Assembly: GCF_000332355.1 (NCBI RefSeq)
Contig: NZ_KB235958.1
Coordinates: forward strand, 1,023,175 to 1,087,174
DNA: 64,000 nucleotides
Direction of reading: 5' to 3'
DNA from: Baaleninema simplex PCC 7105
Lineage (GTDB): Bacteria > Cyanobacteriota > Cyanobacteriia > Cyanobacteriales > Geitlerinemataceae
Position numbers and translations under genes: made by a program
In this document: positions 54,307 to 63,416 of the stretch, piece by piece
How the letters are laid out: every line of letters starts with the position of its first letter
Numbering within the stretch: position 1 is the stretch's first letter
Notes under the pieces: model-generated
Seen by the model: only the letters and a program-made list of their open reading frames with translations
The model's database searches: none
What the model was told of the DNA's origin: nothing

Positions 54307-54968
54307 TATATAGCAATCCTAAGTCATTCATGGAAAGCATTGTGCTCTAATAGAGTAGATTGAACTTAAACTCGAGAAACCTCAATGACCATTATCAATG
54401 AATTGAATGATTTTATTTCCCAAACCAAAGAAGCAAGAGAAGTGAAGAGAGCTTTGGCTGCCAAAATGATTTTATCTGGGAAGTCTTATCACGAAATCAT
54501 GGAAATTCTACAAGTCTCTTCCAGTTTTATTAGCTACTGGAAAAACCAGGCACTTTTTCAGGAAGTTGAGAGTTTAAAACTTCAGTACAAAGGAAGTCAA
54601 GGCTATTTAAATTCTACCCAAAAAACCAAAGTAATTGAATGGATACAGGGGCGAGATTATCTAAGAGTCTCTGATTTAAAGCGTCATTTATATCAAGAAT
54701 ATAATGTCGTGTATGCCTCAGACCAAAGCTATTATGATTTATTAAAAAGCGCTAAAATGAGCTGGAAGAAGGCTCAAAAAAAGAATCCTAAAAAAGATGA
54801 AGAGCTGGTCAAGCAAAAAAAAGAAGAAATTGAGAAAAAATTAAAATCCTGGGAGGAAGACATAAAAGCTGGAAAGCTGGCTGTGGGGAGCATCTAGTTA
54901 AGGCAATGAGTAGAAATACGCATTGACAGAGGTTCGAGAATAGAGAGGAAAGCATTCCCCAGTCGTCA

Positions 54969-55157
54969 ATGACCCCAGAAGAACGTCAAAAACTCAAACA
55001 AGCTGCCGAGACGATCGCCGATATCCTGTACCAAAATACCCCTAAAGAGAAAGTCCAAGACTTCGAGAGCATCGAGCTGAGCCTGCGCGACCACTGGCTC
55101 GAAACCCTTGGCCCGGAACTGGCCCTATTTTTTTGCCCAAAGCAGCCAGACTCGTAG
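54969..55157 (+). CDS. ISKra4-family transposase, first frame
   Basis: The 62-residue frame begins with ATG 83 bp inside the left end and reads MTPEERQKLKQAAETIADIL, LYQNTPKEKV and RDHWLETLGPELALFF, matching the N-terminus of the related copy at 1-220. At the T7 run 55128-55134 it leaves the family match and soon stops. The match resumes one base further on in the frame of 55108-56025. Either a programmed +1 (or -2) slip on the T-run produces the full protein, or the element carries a frameshift mutation. Confidence 0.75.
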   Translation: MTPEERQKLKQAAETIADILYQNTPKEKVQDFESIELSLRDHWLETLGPELALFFCPKQPDS

Positions 55158-56025
55158 CGGACGAGAACGAAAAATTAGGAGCTGTATTGGAGAAGTCTCC
55201 CTAACCAGTAATCAAGCCAAACGCTTAAAGGTTAAGCCCCGCACACGAGTGAGTCCTCATCTAGAACGTTGTTCGTTGCTCCTTTGTGCCAACGAATCCT
55301 TCGCTAACGCTGAAGTCGATATCGAAGTCCTGACTGGGGTCAAGGTTTCTCACGGCACTCAGCATCGCCAAGCCCGCCAAAACGCACTGTCATTGAGCCA
55401 AAGCCAAGACTCGGTGAGGGAAATGAGTGTTGATGGTGGCAAGGTGCGACTACGCACCCCTAAAGGACAAGAAAGTCTCTGGCGCGACTACAAAGCCATT
55501 GCTCTACACGGACAGGTTTGTGCCGCCGTCTTTCAAGACAACGCTCAATTGGCCGACTGGGTACGCCAACAGCCAAGGGCTGAGTCGGTGAGTGTCGTGG
55601 CCGACGGTCATCCCGGTGTCTGGAATTTGGCTCGTGATTGCCTCAAGGAATCCCAACGCCAGGAAATCCTCGACTGGTATCACTTGATAGAAAATCTGCA
55701 TCGGGTTGGGGGTTCAAGCCAACGTTTAGAAGCGGTACGAGAGCATTTGTGGCAGGGTGAGGTCGAAGCCGCGGGGGCCGAGTTCGGCCAGTGGCGTACT
55801 CCAGAAGTGGTCAACTTCCTCAACTATATAGAGCGCCATTCTCATCGCTTACCGAATTATGCCCAACGCCAGGAAAACGGCCAGGTCATTGGTTCGGGGG
55901 AAGTTGAATCGACTATTAAACGCATTGGTTTGAGAATGAAGATTTCCGGAGCGCAGTGGAATCGAGAGAATGTCAATCCCATGTTGCGTTTACGCTGTGC
56001 TTATCTCAATCGCGAGTTGGCTTAA
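55108..56025 (+). CDS. ISKra4-family transposase, main frame
   Basis: The 305-residue frame opens before the T-run and continues the transposase as FFAQSSQTRSGRERK. The DDE residues are visible in SVDGGKVRL (about residue 115), VVADGHPGVWN (about 172) and GSGEVESTIKRI (about 268). Together with the first frame the protein is about 350 residues, shorter than the 400-480 usual for the family; the region between the second Asp and the Glu is compact, so an internal deletion is possible. The stop lies 34 bp before the right inverted repeat. Confidence 0.82.
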   Translation: MARNWPYFFAQSSQTRSGRERKIRSCIGEVSLTSNQAKRLKVKPRTRVSPHLERCSLLLCANESFANAEVDIEVLTGVKVSHGTQHRQARQNALSLSQSQDSVREMSVDGGKVRLRTPKGQESLWRDYKAIALHGQVCAAVFQDNAQLADWVRQQPRAESVSVVADGHPGVWNLARDCLKESQRQEILDWYHLIENLHRVGGSSQRLEAVREHLWQGEVEAAGAEFGQWRTPEVVNFLNYIERHSHRLPNYAQRQENGQVIGSGEVESTIKRIGLRMKISGAQWNRENVNPMLRLRCAYLNRELA

Positions 56026-56742
56026 GTATTTTTACTCATTACTTAAAATAGATGCTCCCTGGCTGTGTTTATGATTGACGAATGCCATCTTCTTTGGGAA
56101 GACCTCTTAAGTTATGTGTGGGGTAAAACAAAAATAAGAGTCGAAATTCCCATTAAAAATGAAAAAAGTCGTCAAACTTATTCTGGAGCATTAGATTATC
56201 AAACTCATGAATTTATTGTTCGAGAATATCCTCAAGCTAATACCGAGAATACCATTGATTTTGTTGAGTATTTACAAGAACAAAGACCCGAACAGAGATT
56301 GGCTATATTTTGGGATGGCGCCAAGTATCATGACTCTAAAGAATTTCGTGAATTCTTAAAGGGATTAAATGGTGAATTAGATGAAGATGAATGGTTGATT
56401 ATCTGCACGAAATTTGCTCCAAATGCTCCCGAGCAAAACCCAGTTGAAGATATTTGGCTACAGACGAAGAACTTTCTTAGACAGTTTTATCATCTCTGTG
56501 ATTCATTTAAAATTGTCAGAGAGTTATTTAAGTTTTTTGCTGATGGTCAAATCTTTGATTTCCCCAAACTTCATCACTATGGAGTTTTGCCACAAGTCAC
56601 TTAGGGTTGCTATATAAGCCAATTTAAAAAGATATTTGTTTTTTTAACATCGATTTTATTTGAAAGATGACATCATTATATTGTAAGCAATAATCATTTG
56701 AAAAAAAATTTAAAATTTTTCAAAAAAAAATAAACTCATTTT

Positions 56743-56817: not shown

Positions 56818-58215
56818 ATGAAGAAAGCCTTAACTGTAGCGTTACTATCAGCGATAACGGTCAATTTTTGCGATCGACGAGCCGTCGTTCGAGTTCCACC
56901 TCAAGAGTTTGAGACGTTTGGCGATTGGTGTCGAAACTTAGAGCAGTTGACACCGGAAGCCAGACATACCGTCAAAATCTTATTAAAAAAAGCTGACACA
57001 GAAGATTGCGATCGAGCTGAGGAAATTCTCACCAGCCTGACAGAACTGAGTTTATGGAACAAGCCAATTAAAGATATTACACCGTTAGCGAGTTTCACGA
57101 ATCTGACCGAGTTGACCCTTGAGAGCCTTCAACTCGAGGACATCACCCCCTTAGCCCATCTCACCAATTTGAGAACGCTCAAACTTGAAGAGAATCAAAT
57201 CGAGGACATCACCCCCTTAGCCAATCTCACCCATCTGAACGAGCTGGGACTCTATAAGAATCAAATCAAGGACATCACCCCCTTAGCCAATCTCACCCAT
57301 CTGAATAAGCTTTGGCTAAGCCACAACCAAATCGAGGATATCACCCCCTTAGCCAATCTCACCCATCTGAACGAGTTGGCACTCATCAAAAACCAAATCG
57401 AGGACATCACTCCCTTAGCTAATCTCACCCACCTGAATAAGCTTTGGCTCGTAGAAAATCAAATTGAGGACGTGACCCCCTTAGGGAACTTGACTCACTT
57501 AAGATTGCTCAAACTCGAAGAGAATCAAATCGAGGACGTCACCCCCTTAGCCAACCTTACCAACCTCATCACACTCAACCTTAATAAAAATCAAATCGAG
57601 GAGGTGGCTCCCTTAGCCAACTTAACGAACCTAGAGATCCTGACTATCAAAGAGAATCAAATTAAAGATGTGTCACCGTTAGCCGGCATGACGAACCTAG
57701 GATGGCTCAAACTCGAAGCCAATCAAATCGAGGACATCACAGCCTTAGCCAACCTCACTAATCTGAACAGGCTTAAACTCTCTTTCAATCAAATCGAGGA
57801 CATGACTCCCTTAGCCAACCTTACCAACCTGAAATGGCTGGGACTCAGTGCTAATCGCATTGAGGACGTGACTCCCTTAGCCAATCTCACTAATTTAATC
57901 GAACTCGAACTCAGTAAAAATCAAATCCAGGACGTGACCTTGCTGGCAAACCTCACTGAACTCTATTGGCTCGGACTTGCAGCCAATCAAATCGAGGACA
58001 TCACCCCCTTAACCAACTTAACTCGACTGGATGAGCTATCTCTTTGGGAAAATCAAATCAAAGATGTGTCACCTTTAGCCAGCTTAATCTATTTGGACGA
58101 GCTGTCTCTCTGGGGAAATCCCATTATCGATCGAACCTGTCCCCTTCCCGATGAAAGAGTTTGTCAGTTTGATTGGCCTTATATTCCCACACCCTTACGA
58201 GGAGGACGACCCTAG
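56818..58215 (+). CDS. Leucine-rich-repeat protein 1
   Basis: The 465-residue protein has a hydrophobic N-terminus (KKALTVALLSAITVNFC) that looks like a signal peptide, possibly of a lipoprotein although VNFC is not a good lipobox. An N-terminal cap with Cys pairs (WCRNL, EDCDRAE) precedes 17 internalin-like repeats of 22 residues of the form LANLTNLxxLxLxxNQIEDVTP (about 75-435), and a C-terminal cap with DRTCPLPDERVCQFDWP. Such proteins are usually exposed binding proteins. Two tandem paralogs follow. Poly-A/AG-rich sequence (AAAAGAGAAAAAC) precedes the ATG. Confidence 0.85.
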   Translation: MKKALTVALLSAITVNFCDRRAVVRVPPQEFETFGDWCRNLEQLTPEARHTVKILLKKADTEDCDRAEEILTSLTELSLWNKPIKDITPLASFTNLTELTLESLQLEDITPLAHLTNLRTLKLEENQIEDITPLANLTHLNELGLYKNQIKDITPLANLTHLNKLWLSHNQIEDITPLANLTHLNELALIKNQIEDITPLANLTHLNKLWLVENQIEDVTPLGNLTHLRLLKLEENQIEDVTPLANLTNLITLNLNKNQIEEVAPLANLTNLEILTIKENQIKDVSPLAGMTNLGWLKLEANQIEDITALANLTNLNRLKLSFNQIEDMTPLANLTNLKWLGLSANRIEDVTPLANLTNLIELELSKNQIQDVTLLANLTELYWLGLAANQIEDITPLTNLTRLDELSLWENQIKDVSPLASLIYLDELSLWGNPIIDRTCPLPDERVCQFDWPYIPTPLRGGRP

Positions 58216-58302
58216 GACAAATAAATGGGTTTTAAAGATTCAATTTAAAGATTCAATATTTAACGACGTACAAAAAATTAGTGAAAACGAGATGAAAAAT
58301 CC

Positions 58303-59535
58303 ATGAAGAAAGCATTGAGTCTGGCGTTACTATCAGCAATAACCTTCAAATTTTGTGGTAAACGTGCTGTCATTGAATTTCAGCCAAGCCACCCTGAAGA
58401 GTTGAATAGTTTTGGCGATTGGTGTCGAAATCCAGAGTTATTGACCTCCGAAGCTCGATATACATTTTCACTCTTGCTAAGAGAGACTGAAACCAACGAT
58501 TGCGATCGAGCTGAATCTCAACTCAATAACCTAACAAAACTTAAACTTAATGGGAATCAAATCGAGGATATAACCCCCTTAGCCAAGCTCACACATCTCC
58601 GCGAACTTGAACTCAGCAATAATCGAATCAAGGACGTGACTCCCTTAGCCAACCTCACCAATTTGAACGAGCTTTGGCTGAGTACAAATCGAATCGAGGA
58701 CATCACCCCTTTAGCCAATCTCACTAATTTGAAGAAGCTTGGACTCAGTCGGAATCGACTTAAGTATATTACTCCCTTAGTCAGCTTAACCCATCTCAAC
58801 GAGCTTTGGCTCAAAGACAATCAAATTGAGGATGTGACCCCGTTAGGAAGCTTGATTAACCTAACAGAACTCAAACTCAATGGGAATCAAATTGAGGAGG
58901 TTACACCCTTAACCCACCTCACCAACCTCATCTCACTTAAACTCAATGAGAATCAAATCGAGGAGGTGGCTCCCTTAGCCAACTTAACGAACCTAGAGAC
59001 CTTAACTCTCAAAGAGAATCAAATCAAAGATGTGTCACCGTTAGCCAGCCTGACGAACCTAGCCAAACTAGAACTCGAAGCCAATCAAATCGAAGACGTG
59101 ACTCCCTTAGCCAACCTCACTAATCTGAACGAGCTTAGACTCTCTTTCAATCAAATCGAAGACGTGACTCCCTTAGCTAAGCTTACCAACCTGAAATGGC
59201 TGGGACTCAGTGCCAATCAAATCGAAGACGTGACTCCCTTAGTCCATCTCACTAATTTAATCGAACTCGAACTCAGTAAAAATAAAATTCAGGATGTCAC
59301 CCCACTCGCGAACCTCACTGAACTCATTTGGCTCGGACTTGGAGCCAATCAAATTGAGGACGTGACCCCCTTAGCTCATCCCAATTTAACGGGTTTGAGC
59401 GAGCTATCTCTCTGGGGAAATCCTACGATCGATCGAACCTGTCCTCGTCCCCACGAAAGTCTTTGCCAGTTTGATTGGCCTTATGTTTCTACACCCTTAA
59501 TAAGAAGACGACCCTATAGCAATCCTCCTAGATGA
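58303..59535 (+). CDS. Leucine-rich-repeat protein 2, C-terminus altered by a mobile repeat
   Basis: The 410-residue paralog of 56818-58215 has the same leader (KKALSLALLSAITFKFC), Cys-containing cap and 14 repeats, ending DRTCPRPHESLCQFDWP. Its paralogs end in GRP plus stop; here a type D mobile repeat begins at 59515, within what was CGA CCC TAA, so the protein reads through RRRP into YSNPPR before a stop provided by the repeat. From about 58950 on the DNA is almost identical to the third gene, pointing to recent duplication or gene conversion. The upstream 90 bases are similar to those before gene 3. Confidence 0.85.
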   Translation: MKKALSLALLSAITFKFCGKRAVIEFQPSHPEELNSFGDWCRNPELLTSEARYTFSLLLRETETNDCDRAESQLNNLTKLKLNGNQIEDITPLAKLTHLRELELSNNRIKDVTPLANLTNLNELWLSTNRIEDITPLANLTNLKKLGLSRNRLKYITPLVSLTHLNELWLKDNQIEDVTPLGSLINLTELKLNGNQIEEVTPLTHLTNLISLKLNENQIEEVAPLANLTNLETLTLKENQIKDVSPLASLTNLAKLELEANQIEDVTPLANLTNLNELRLSFNQIEDVTPLAKLTNLKWLGLSANQIEDVTPLVHLTNLIELELSKNKIQDVTPLANLTELIWLGLGANQIEDVTPLAHPNLTGLSELSLWGNPTIDRTCPRPHESLCQFDWPYVSTPLIRRRPYSNPPR

Positions 59536-59610
59536 ATCGTGAAAAGATCGACTCCCTAAACCCTTGCTATAGCTAGATTGAGAATCCACAATTAATTGAG
59601 GACTGCTATA
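59515..59610. mobile_element. Short non-autonomous IS630-type element (type D)
   Basis: The 96-bp element has ends TATAGCAATCCTC and GAGGACTGCTATA. The pre-insertion site can be read from the paralogous spacer as CCCTAAGATAAATAG, so it entered at TA. It replaces the stop codon of LRR gene 2. Confidence 0.75.
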
Positions 59611-59681
59611 AGATAAATAGATTTTAAAGATTCAATATTTAACAATGTACAAAAAATTAGTGAAGACGAGATAAAAAATCC

Positions 59682-60962
59682 ATGAAGAAAGCATTGAGTC
59701 TGGCGTTTATATCAGCAATGACGGTCAACTTTTGTAGTCAACCTCCTGTCGTTCGAATTCAGCCGAACCACCCTCGAAAGTTTGAGAGTTTCGGCGATTG
59801 GTGTCGAAACCCAGAATTATTAACAGTAGAAGCTAGATATACAGTATCCGTGGTGTTAAGAGAGATTGAAGCGGACGATTGCGATCGAGCTGAATCTAAA
59901 CTCAAGTACCTAAGAAAGCTAGAACTCTACAATCGAGAAATTCGAGACGTCACTCCCCTAGCAACTCTTACAAGTCTGCGTGAGTTTAGACTTCCTGGCA
60001 ATCAAATCGAAGATATTACTCCCTTAGCCCATCTCACCAATTTAACAACCCTGGGACTCGGTGGCAATCAAATCGAAGATATTACCCCCTTAACCTATCT
60101 CACCAATTTAACAACCCTTCGACTTGGAGACAATCAAATCGAAGATATTACCCCCTTAGCCCATCTCACCAATTTAACAACCCTTCGACTTGGAGACAAT
60201 CAAATCGAAGATATTACCCCCTTAGCCCATCTCACTAACCTGACAATCCTTGGACTCGGTGGCAATCAAATCGAAGATATTACCCCCTTAGCCCATCTCA
60301 CTAACCTGACAATCCTTGGACTCAGCAGTAATAAAGTTGAAGACATCACAGCCATAGCAAACCTCACCAACCTCATATCACTTGAACTCGAAAAAAATCA
60401 AATTGAAGAGGTGGCTCCCTTAGCCAACTTAACGAATCTAGAGACCTTAACTCTCAAAGAGAATCAAATCAAAGATGTGTCACCGTTAGCCAGCCTGACG
60501 AACCTAGTCAAACTAGAACTCGAAGCCAATCAAATCGAAGACGTGACTCCCTTAGCCAACCTCACTAATCTGAACGAGCTTAGACTCTCTTTCAATCAAA
60601 TCGAAGACGTGACTCCCTTAGCTAAGCTTACCAACCTAAAATGGCTGGGACTCAGTGCCAATCAAATCGAAGACGTGACTCCCTTAGCCCATCTCACTAA
60701 TTTAATCAAACTCGAACTCAGTAAAAATCAAATTCAGGATGTCACCCCACTCGCGAACCTCACTGAACTCATTTGGCTCGGACTTGGAGCCAATCAAATT
60801 GAGGACGTGACCCCCTTAGCTCATCCCAATTTAACGGGTTTGAGCGAGCTATCTCTCTGGGGAAATCCTACGATCGATCGAACCTGTCCTCGTCCCCACG
60901 AAAGTCTTTGCCAGTTTGATTGGCCTTATGTTTCTATACCTTTAAGAAGGGGACGGCCTTAA
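59682..60962 (+). CDS. Leucine-rich-repeat protein 3
   Basis: The 426-residue paralog has the leader KKALSLAFISAMTVNFC, the same Cys caps and 15 repeats. Repeats 3-7 are nearly identical to each other in DNA (LTTLRLGDNQIEDITPLAHL twice in a row), suggesting recent internal expansion by slippage or unequal crossing-over. The last seven repeats match LRR gene 2 almost base for base. It ends in RRGRP and a normal stop. All three LRR genes are co-directional and could share a promoter near 56770. Confidence 0.85.
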   Translation: MKKALSLAFISAMTVNFCSQPPVVRIQPNHPRKFESFGDWCRNPELLTVEARYTVSVVLREIEADDCDRAESKLKYLRKLELYNREIRDVTPLATLTSLREFRLPGNQIEDITPLAHLTNLTTLGLGGNQIEDITPLTYLTNLTTLRLGDNQIEDITPLAHLTNLTTLRLGDNQIEDITPLAHLTNLTILGLGGNQIEDITPLAHLTNLTILGLSSNKVEDITAIANLTNLISLELEKNQIEEVAPLANLTNLETLTLKENQIKDVSPLASLTNLVKLELEANQIEDVTPLANLTNLNELRLSFNQIEDVTPLAKLTNLKWLGLSANQIEDVTPLAHLTNLIKLELSKNQIQDVTPLANLTELIWLGLGANQIEDVTPLAHPNLTGLSELSLWGNPTIDRTCPRPHESLCQFDWPYVSIPLRRGRP

Positions 60963-61153
60963 GATCGATAAACGGGTTTTCAAAATTCAATATTATTAAT
61001 ATTCTCCAGAATTCTGTTGGTTGTTCGGCTCAATAAATTCTTACCTATTGTGTTAAAACTATCGCAAATTGTCTCGATCGCATCACTATAAATACTCTGT
61101 GCTTCACGCAACCATTATTTTAATTGATTTTTGTCGCTTTCTGGGGCTTTGGC

Positions 61154-61254
61154 TATAGCAGTATGACTTCGTTTGCATATCGTTTTCAATATGAATCATT
61201 GCGGTATGGGGTTTTCAGCCGATCTGTTTCCGCAAACCATTTAGGATTGCTATA
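61154..61254. mobile_element. Short IS630-type element (type A), copy 2
   Basis: 101 bp, ends TATAGCAGTATGAC and GGATTGCTATA, same length as the other two type A copies, with internal ATGGGGTTTTCAGCCGATC. Confidence 0.8.
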
Positions 61255-61259
61255 TTTTA

Positions 61260-61381
61260 TATAGTAACCCTAAATCAGTTGTGTAACAAAATTGAGACAA
61301 AAAGGGAATCGGGAACGAGGAACGGGGAATCAGATTTTTTCTGGTGTTTTAATTCTTGACGACTCATTTAGGACTACTATA
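61260..61381. mobile_element. Short IS630-type element (type C), copy 1
   Basis: About 122 bp, ends TATAGTAACCCTAAATC and GGACTACTATA. It contains GTTGTGTAACAAAATTGAGA, also seen in the next copy. It lies directly beside a type A copy. Confidence 0.7.
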
Positions 61382-61613
61382 TGTAGCAGCCTTAAATAAG
61401 TTGTGTAACAAAATCGACACAAAAAGCGAACAGAGAATCGGGTTTTGTTTGGTATTTTAATTTTTAAGGGTCTTCGGAGTTTGTGGTTATAAATGTATAA
61501 CATAATACAAAAAATAGAGGATTCGAGAGTCAAAACCCTTGAAATCTCGTGAAGTTAATTTTTCTGTCACCCTAAACCCCGAAGAGCCATTTTTAACAAC
61601 TCATTTAGGACTA
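61382..61613. mobile_element. Type C element, copy 2, with a type B element inside it
   Basis: The left part begins TGTAGCAGCCTTAAATAAG and continues GTTGTGTAACAAAATCGACA, matching type C copy 1; the right end ATTTAGGACTATA resumes after the type B insert (61468-61588) and one copy of its 8-bp duplication. Confidence 0.65.
61468..61588. mobile_element. Short non-autonomous element (type B), copy 1, 8-bp target duplication
   Basis: 121 bp, ends GGGTCTTCGGAGTTT and GGCTCTTCGGGGTTT (read inward), flanked by ATTTTTAA on both sides (61460-61467, 61589-61596). The 8-bp duplication and GGxTCTTCGG ends suggest an ISL3-type parent, which is inference. Confidence 0.8.
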
Positions 61614-61712
61614 TAGCAGTACGACGTCGTTTGCGAATTGTTTTCAGGATAGATCGTTACGGCATGGGGTTTTCAGCCGATCTGTTTCCGCAAACCATTT
61701 AGGATTGCTATA
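61612..61712. mobile_element. Short IS630-type element (type A), copy 3
   Basis: 101 bp, ends TATAGCAGTACGACG and GGATTGCTATA, nearly identical to the copy at 20339-20439. Confidence 0.8.
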
Positions 61713-61811
61713 CTATAGATTTTTATGAAATTGGTAAATTTACCAAGTCTTCTACAAAAAAGTTTATCTTGAGATTCGCCTATATAGGTTTTCCATTATA
61801 CTATTATCATC

Positions 61812-61932
61812 GGGTCTTCGGAGTTTGTGATTATAAATGTATAACATAATACAAAAAATAGAGGATTCGAGAGTCAAAACCCTTGAAATCTCGTGAATTT
61901 AGTTTTTCTGTCACCCTAAACTCCGAAGAGCC
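61812..61932. mobile_element. Short non-autonomous element (type B), copy 2, 8-bp target duplication
   Basis: 121 bp, nearly identical to 61468-61588, flanked by TTATCATC (61804-61811 and 61933-61940). It ends 35 bp before the decarboxylase start, so it may affect that gene's promoter. Confidence 0.82.
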
Positions 61933-61967
61933 TTATCATCTCAATTTTTGAAGACCAAATTTCGAGA

Positions 61968-63416
61968 TTGAAAAACATTAAAAATCTTGGAATCGTGCAA
62001 CACCAAACCCCATTTATAGATGCCTTAAAACAACAATCCCAACGCTACCACACCGCCTTTTACCTACCAGGACACAAACAGGGAAGGGGAATTTCCAAAC
62101 TCCTTAAAAACTGGTGGGGAAACACTGTTTTCCAAGCCGACTTACCCGAACTTCCCGAACTCGATAACCTCTTCAATCCCGATGGCGTCATTCAAGAGGC
62201 GCAACATCTCGCCGCAGACGCCTTCGGTGCATCTCAAACCTGGTTTCTCGCCAACGGTTCTACCACCGGAATTATCGCCGCTATCCTCGCCACCTGTTCC
62301 CCTGGCGATAAAATCCTTCTCCCCCGCAACGTTCACAAATCGGTGATTTCGGGAACGATTCTCGCGGGAGCGGTTCCGATATTCGTCGAAACCGAATACC
62401 ATCCCCATTGGAATATCGCCCTCAAAACGACTCCAGAAACCCTAGAATTTGCCTTAAACCAACATTCCGACATTCGCGCCGTTTTAATCGTTTCTCCCAC
62501 CTATCACGGCGTTTGTAGCGATATCGAGGCAATTTCTCAACTCTGTCACCGCCGCAACCTCCCCCTGATCGTAGACGAAGCGCACGGCGCACATTTCCAC
62601 TTTCACCCCAATTTCCCCAAATCCGCGATCGCCTCCGACGCCGATCTCGCCATCCAATCGACCCATAAAACCCTCAGTGCGTTGTCTCAGGCGTCGATGT
62701 TGCACTTAAAGGGAAATCGCGTCGAAGCCAAACGGATCGATCGCGCGCTATCCTTAGTTCGATCCACCAGTCCCAACGCCTTACTTCTAGCCAGTCTCGA
62801 CGCCGCCAGACATCAAATCGCCACCGAAGGATTCAACTTACTCCAACACACCTTAACCCTCACCAAACTCGCCAGACAACGACTGTCGCAACTTCCCGAT
62901 TTAGAAATTTTCGAGAGTTCCCCACCCTTCGACACCACTCGCCTCACCGTCAGCATCGCCAACTGGGGATTGACTGGATATACCGCCGACGAATCCCTTC
63001 ACGAACAGTTCGGCGTCACCTGCGAACTCCCCGAACTGCAACATTTGACCTTTGCCATTACCCTGGGAAATACATCTGAAGATATCGATCGCCTCGTGAC
63101 GGGATTCGAGAAACTCCGCCGCCTTCCCCACGACACCGAAACGGTCTCTCACGTGACGTTTCCACCGATTCCATCGCTAGCGTTATCCCCTCGAGAGGCA
63201 CATTTCGCCAAAACGGAAACCGTCGCGTTACACGAGAGTCTCGATCGCGTTTGCGCCGAAATCGTTTGTCCCTATCCCCCCGGAATTCCCGCCTTAATAC
63301 CGGGAGAGCGGATTTCTGCCGCCTCCATATCATACATCGAGCAAATTGTCAACTCCGGCGGAAGCGTCACGGGATTGGCAGCAAAAGCCGAACCCCGTTT
63401 AACCGTAGTGGCGTAG
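61968..63416 (+). CDS. Orn/Lys/Arg decarboxylase family, PLP-dependent
   Basis: The 482-residue protein has the family start TAFYLPGHKQGRG and DLPELPELDNLF (about residues 29-65), the PLP-phosphate loop FLANGSTTG (about 92-100), the cofactor-contact DEAHGAH (about 203) and the PLP lysine in STHKTLSALSQ (about 232). It decarboxylates a basic amino acid, probably arginine or lysine, toward polyamines; substrate cannot be decided here. The length fits the short cyanobacterial form without the N-terminal wing domain. The start is a TTG at 61968. A copy of its last 16 codons lies at 63597-63650. Confidence 0.88.
   Translation: MKNIKNLGIVQHQTPFIDALKQQSQRYHTAFYLPGHKQGRGISKLLKNWWGNTVFQADLPELPELDNLFNPDGVIQEAQHLAADAFGASQTWFLANGSTTGIIAAILATCSPGDKILLPRNVHKSVISGTILAGAVPIFVETEYHPHWNIALKTTPETLEFALNQHSDIRAVLIVSPTYHGVCSDIEAISQLCHRRNLPLIVDEAHGAHFHFHPNFPKSAIASDADLAIQSTHKTLSALSQASMLHLKGNRVEAKRIDRALSLVRSTSPNALLLASLDAARHQIATEGFNLLQHTLTLTKLARQRLSQLPDLEIFESSPPFDTTRLTVSIANWGLTGYTADESLHEQFGVTCELPELQHLTFAITLGNTSEDIDRLVTGFEKLRRLPHDTETVSHVTFPPIPSLALSPREAHFAKTETVALHESLDRVCAEIVCPYPPGIPALIPGERISAASISYIEQIVNSGGSVTGLAAKAEPRLTVVA

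Follow-up and report, generated by a model that had tools for sequence, protein, structure and literature searches.

In the cyanobacterium Baaleninema simplex PCC 7105, an Orn/Lys/Arg decarboxylase-type gene (ORF 61968-63416, of which a later codon may be the true start) is preceded by three leucine-rich-repeat genes, and the gap that separates it from the third of them (59682-60962) harbors a pile-up of six short mobile elements embedded in the remains of an ISL3-family insertion sequence, and we consider it very probable that the best explanation for this arrangement is a stack of successive transposition events in the non-coding DNA between the two genes. The gap allows the succession of events to be read for two kinds of mini-transposons that share one genome, namely an IS630-type set (types A and C) for which no intact partner was found, and an ISL3-type set (type B) that comprises many identical copies and probably still has a living partner. 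Positions given without a prefix refer to the window, i.e., the 64,000-nucleotide stretch of DNA that was analysed (C4:1023175-1087174 of a genome of 6.15 Mb in 8 contigs, which is possibly incomplete), and the coordinates of the features are collected in Table 1. Upstream of the gap, the three leucine-rich-repeat genes are arranged in tandem (56818-60962); the third of them, with its stop at 60962, is internalin-like, scoring below the NCBIfam cut-offs (it is the sole one of the three that was compared with NCBIfam).

Table 1. Elements of the pile-up, pieces of the ISL3 remnant, and the IS630 copy in the window.
Feature	Position	Strand	Remarks
A1, IS630-type MITE, 97 bp	61156-61252	+	TA on both flanks (61154-61155, 61253-61254)
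C1, IS630-type MITE, 118 bp	61262-61379	+	TA on both flanks (61260-61261, 61380-61381)
C2, IS630-type MITE hosting B1 and A2, outer length 332 bp	61384-61715	+	TG on the left, TA on the right
B1, ISL3-type MITE in C2, 121 bp	61468-61588	+	Duplication ATTTTTAA at 61460-61467 and 61589-61596
A2, IS630-type MITE in the right terminal repeat of C2, 97 bp	61614-61710	+	TA/TA
B2, ISL3-type MITE in the left end of the ISL3 remnant, 121 bp	61812-61932	+	Duplication TTATCATC at 61804-61811 and 61933-61940
ISL3 remnant, C-terminal piece of the transposase (about residues 311-364)	60992-61149	-	Protein match; 129/158 bases identical to intact ISL3
ISL3 remnant, left-end piece up to B2	61733-61811	-	65/77 identical to intact ISL3
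ISL3 remnant, left terminal repeat past B2	61941-61956	-	Ends GAAGACC like intact ISL3
IS630 copy with terminal repeats like A and C, relative of the presumed parent	54309-56614	+	Split by an ISKra4 element (about 54886-56059, by eye)

The stretch 61154-61940 contains two elements each of types A, C and B, whose ends and target duplications can be recognised. This confirms the proposal of the first-pass annotation that six such elements crowd into less than 800 bp. Their designation as non-autonomous is likewise supported, in that they are short and devoid of a transposase gene, and a type B copy flanked by a perfect duplication does indeed reside inside a type C copy, namely B1 in C2 with ATTTTTAA on both sides. 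The nesting goes further, however, than the single B in C that had been described: A2 was overlooked as a second guest of C2, and the statement that the elements lie in places end to end does not apply to A2. Also overlooked was the ISL3 remnant which surrounds the entire pile-up.

Assignment of this remnant to the ISL3 family is based on homology both to the transposase gene and to the left end of an intact element. The resident ISL3 transposase, when used as protein query, matches C4:1084166-1084327, corresponding to 60992-61153 of the window, on the minus strand (E 4.5e-12, 56%, one stop), and the left-end piece up to B2, when joined across B2 to 61956, is identical to the left end of intact ISL3 at 78 of 95 positions. 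The identity between the remnant and intact ISL3 elsewhere in the genome is about 82%. Since remnant pieces are present on both sides, a single dead ISL3 copy spans all six elements; about 880 bp of its middle are absent, their place being occupied by A1, C1 and C2. In the DNA alignment to intact ISL3, the right end of the remnant near the leucine-rich-repeat gene is unrecognisable or lost (a looser gapped alignment, which we disregard, extends as far as 60956 and enters that gene's stop codon), and the remnant's own 8-bp duplication is unreadable because the left end alone is recognised. Elsewhere in the genome, the further ISL3 copies at C4:393588-394973 and C4:2846722-2848024 each contain a B element, and one at C5:493141-494318 has an A element in its left end and a C element adjoining.

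The order of insertions can be read most clearly from C2. Once B1 and one copy of its duplication, as well as A2 and one of its flanking TA, are taken away, the remaining C2 sequence can be aligned over its full length with 30 other C copies, which include C1 and of which at least three are incomplete at the right end. The sequence ATTTTTGA, which corresponds to the target of B1, is present in 26 of these 30 copies, and the uninterrupted A2 site (GACTGCTATA or GACTACTATA) in 15, the others being changed or cut short there. Hence, as its flanks rejoin to an ordinary C copy and the empty sites exist in other C copies, C2 is older than both B1 and A2. The empty site of B2 is found instead in intact ISL3, where the target TTATCATC corresponds to TTATCACC. 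At C4:2171253, too, a B element has inserted into a C copy: it is flanked by a 7-bp duplication, and the C sequence continues to its left and right.

Based on the homology and the paralogous empty sites, one may propose that an ISL3-family insertion sequence first entered the gap on the minus strand and then decayed, as the homology shows, and that the IS630-type elements A1, C1 and C2, which now fill the stretch between the ISL3 pieces, arrived before or after the ISL3 deletion. In later steps, each shown by a paralogous empty site, B1 jumped into C2 with formation of an 8-bp duplication, A2 into a TA of the right end of C2, and B2 into the left end of the ISL3 remnant. Among the observations that speak against this explanation are the unrecognisable right end and duplication of the remnant, the poor match of the right end of B to that of the resident ISL3, the six B copies lacking a duplication (both described below), and the left flank of C2: A1, A2 and C1 exhibit the TA/TA duplication of IS630-type MITEs, whereas C2 has TG instead of TA on its left side.

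It had been suggested in the first-pass annotation that the region between the leucine-rich-repeat cluster and the decarboxylase acts as a landing site. We do not find that the gap is special in this sense: it consists of ISL3 remains and is non-coding, and no special landing site is needed because the spacing of the elements genome-wide fits insertion confined to non-coding DNA. First, 17 neighbouring pairs less than 1 kb apart are present in the genome, five of them from the pile-up, when compared with 17.8 expected for an assumed 20% target and 3.7 for a uniform genome. Second, among 74 copies (15 A, 30 B and 29 C) only one has stop-free frames of at least 100 codons on both sides, as compared with 23-35% of random points at the same loci. 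The pile-up itself is still an outlier. No other cluster of A, B and C elements in the genome is as large, the next having three members, and six elements in 800 bp are exceptional: such a cluster never arose in 5000 random placements when 153 elements were distributed over 6.15, 1.2 or 0.6 Mb; 200 elements in 0.6 Mb produced it 7 times in 5000, and 300 elements 3 times in 5000 for 1.2 Mb and 89 times in 5000 for 0.6 Mb (the 1.2- and 0.6-Mb non-coding targets being assumed sizes).

These figures could be taken to indicate that transposases are genuinely drawn to the gap by a property of the local DNA (its sequence, replication or transcription), which would make it an insertion hot spot, all the more as 14 of the 153 elements (six of them from this window) are located less than 1 kb from an ISL3 protein match, where 2.1 are expected genome-wide (P 3.5e-8). 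The same 14 elements, however, are consistent with the 10.8 expected for an assumed 1.2-Mb non-coding target (P 0.19), just as the pair count agrees with the mean for the assumed 20% target. Moreover, two of the six elements are nested in a third, one B element probably stems from the other by a short hop, and two types of transposase with differing target sequences are involved, so that we regard a hot spot as highly unlikely. Even more speculative is the idea that dead insertion sequences are preferred targets of mini-elements moved by their living kin, which appears to us most improbable; if true, B might be deposited near ISL3-like ends because the ISL3 transposase recognises these, and the corpses would draw further insertions and grow into pile-ups. 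The most economical reading is thus insertion into any tolerated non-coding DNA, combined with nesting and one short hop, and the case illustrates how a dead transposon, when unrecognised, can pass for an insertion hot spot.

Inspection of the genome-wide copies of B provides a consistent picture of its mode of insertion. The right half of B is found at 76 places with at most 3 mismatches (42 forward, 34 reverse; 0 for the reversed-pattern control). Among the 44 full copies with flanks, 43 are 121 bp long, 32 have a perfect 8-bp duplication, six have a perfect 7-bp duplication, and the remaining six lack a duplication of 7-9 bp, one of them being off by a single base of eight. The duplications that the first-pass annotation expected of copies elsewhere are therefore seen, perfect and 7 or 8 bp long, in 38 of the 44. 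In a comparison of 45 copies (one, 123 bp long, could not be compared), 21, 10 and 6 fall into three exact sequence classes. As RNA, one B copy attains a fold of -39.7 kcal/mol (z -5.65), and such a strong fold is expected in view of the inverted repeats of B. A possible role of B as an in-frame protein-inserting palindrome (121 + 8 = 129 bp, a multiple of three) was rejected, since every frame of the consensus contains a stop (by eye) and since the six copies with 7-bp duplications are at variance with it. Likewise, partial matches at C4:1816907-1817150 do not represent a B element with an odd insertion, as the intervening stretch is a run of N; three B copies are located within 1 kb in this region (C4:1816480-1817380), one of them split by this run in the assembly. 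Two of the B copies that have no duplication possess flanks which pair with those of other B copies: the left flank of the copy at C4:1180066 is the right flank of the copy at C4:1161970 (TGAGTCT), and its right 40 bp are those of the copy at C4:1790264, which suggests rearrangement or copying between B elements.

It was proposed at the outset that B requires a transposase different from that of A and C, and this is supported by the ends and duplications, which point to the ISL3 type (8 bp) for B versus the IS630 type (TA) for A and C. B possesses ISL3-like terminal inverted repeats, with the right end being weaker than the left, and, judging from these ends and the length of the duplication, an ISL3 transposase probably moves B in trans, the resident one being the most likely candidate. 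The intact resident ISL3 comprises 1254 bp and is flanked by its own perfect 8-bp duplication ATCATCGC; its transposase scores 340.9 bits for ISL3 in NCBIfam (cut-off 180) and exhibits three ISL3 domains in Pfam, and four ISL3 copies encode an intact transposase identical to the query. Starts of the GG[GC]TCTTC or GGCTCTCC type are also encountered at the ends of foreign ISL3 elements. The left end of B agrees with that of the resident ISL3 in 16 of 16 and 22 of 24 bases, and the right end in 10 of 16 and 16 of 24, which makes the pairing of the two likely, yet not certain.

The agreement of merely 16 of 24 bases at the right end is also what one might observe if B had been moved by another ISL3 that has since been lost from the genome, and G207, a genome of the same family, contains a B-like copy (75%; the single full-length foreign B among the matches scored), yet no ISL3 transposase match. 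Three points argue for the resident element: (i) its left end agrees with B in 22 of 24 bases, (ii) among the 34 public ISL3 relatives found, all in cyanobacterial records (the host's own possibly being left out), the best single end at the 24 foreign loci inspected agrees in 20 of 24, and (iii) the members of the largest B classes are identical, and the ISL3 that was found intact is the resident one. A lost mover thus deserves to be kept in mind as the less likely alternative, and the resident ISL3 remains our preferred partner for B. In the phylum, B is matched in 8 of 386 genomes including the host (the scoring being limited to two candidates per genome). G241, G286 and four others yielded short matches to B, for which an ISL3-like partner was not identified, and the locus in G286 (L158) comprises no transposase ORF.

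B1 and B2 are each 7 positions off the commonest class, with five changes in common, and differ from one another at 4 positions, so that each is the sole nearest neighbour of the other among the copies compared. We infer from this pattern that both stem from a branch older than the main burst of B. Their own distinct 8-bp duplications and distinct flanks identify both as insertions, and, as they are each other's closest relatives, one probably derives from the other through a short hop. Gene conversion might also have rendered them mutual nearest neighbours, but the different perfect 8-bp duplications and flanks, with which a later conversion would still be compatible, make this unlikely. The short hop between B1 and B2 does not reflect a general habit of B: local hopping of that kind was ruled out, as in the other comparable close pairs (C4:760772/761514, C4:1816525/1817224 and C5:691529/692387) the neighbour is not the unique nearest relative.

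Type A is found at 19 places genome-wide, and the expectation that copies elsewhere share the proposed ends and duplications is borne out in part: TA is present on both sides, at 97 bp, in 13 of the 19, while at five places only one end is recognised and one has GA on the left. The left part of C occurs at 58 places with at most 3 mismatches (the DNA search with C returned 218 candidates, of which 40 were scored). The C copies contain a variable number of GGGAACG-like heptamers, which constitute a small internal tandem repeat, and this heptamer stretch yields short matches in other genomes of the family, too. In the 13 other genomes of the family, A is represented by one copy (95% identical, in G386) and C by short matches covering only the end or the internal heptamers.

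A and C have the end motif TATAG[CT]A[AG][CT]CCTAAAT in common, and the ends TATAGCAATCCTAAGT and TATAGCAACCCTAAGT of the IS630 copy in the window are one mismatch from it, from which we infer that A and C moved with the help of an IS630 transposase. The gene of this copy is split by an ISKra4-family element (ORF 55108-56025; NCBIfam ISKra4, 261.7 bits), which represents a second nested insertion in the window. An intact IS630 partner for A and C was not found among 14 DDE_3 places (at most 2 mismatches, flanks of about 1.5 kb): the broken copy in the window is the only one of these with an A/C-like end of its own, and the second such end near a DDE_3 place (locus L149) belongs to an A copy. 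Furthermore, the DNA of the window IS630 does not recur elsewhere in the genome at E <= 0.001 (40 of 59 candidates scored). The search for parents by their ends, as advised in the first-pass annotation, has hence yielded an intact ISL3 with matching left end for B, and for A and C an IS630 with matching ends as a broken copy only. Since this sole IS630 copy found with matching ends is broken, A and C are probably immobile now. An intact autonomous partner is, however, not required for MITE status.

When compared with known systems, A and C are ordinary IS630-type MITEs, a type that is represented in cyanobacteria by, for example, Nezha. Going by descriptions, they share with IS630-type (TA) MITEs the TA duplication, the IS630 terminal repeats and a length too short for a transposase, and differ from others of this type in that the sole matching IS630 copy found is here broken by ISKra4 and, in the case of C, by the variable run of heptamers.

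For B, the closest counterpart by description is a MITE of Microcystis aeruginosa PCC 7806. According to the portion of that report considered here, it is an ISL3-type MITE of 187 nt without transposase, present in over thirty identical copies, which has imperfect terminal repeats starting GGCTCTTCG and 8-nt target duplications, is mainly intergenic and folds into a stem-loop, and the ISL3 copies of Microcystis have ends that match the MITE and 8-nt duplications as well (PMC11448079). B resembles this element, as there described, in lacking a transposase and in its terminal repeats, 8-nt duplications, many identical copies and fold; it is shorter (121 bp versus 187), and, unlike the Microcystis MITE in that portion of the report, B has in addition inserted into IS630-type MITEs and into an ISL3 remnant. 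No description of MITEs nested in an ISL3 remnant was found in a limited literature search. An ISL3 partner, ISMac21, is also named for a MITE of Methanosarcina acetivorans, in the excerpt of a table where its row reads 179, 6, 22, 7 and the legend begins with length and copy number (PMC3852290); as far as this excerpt allows the two to be likened by description, an ISL3 partner is common to both, the latter MITE being archaeal. ISL3-type MITEs are already known, and B adds another to that kind. For specialists, the pile-up is a clean and useful example that holds no surprise, that is, a tidy fossil record of jumping of a kind already known.
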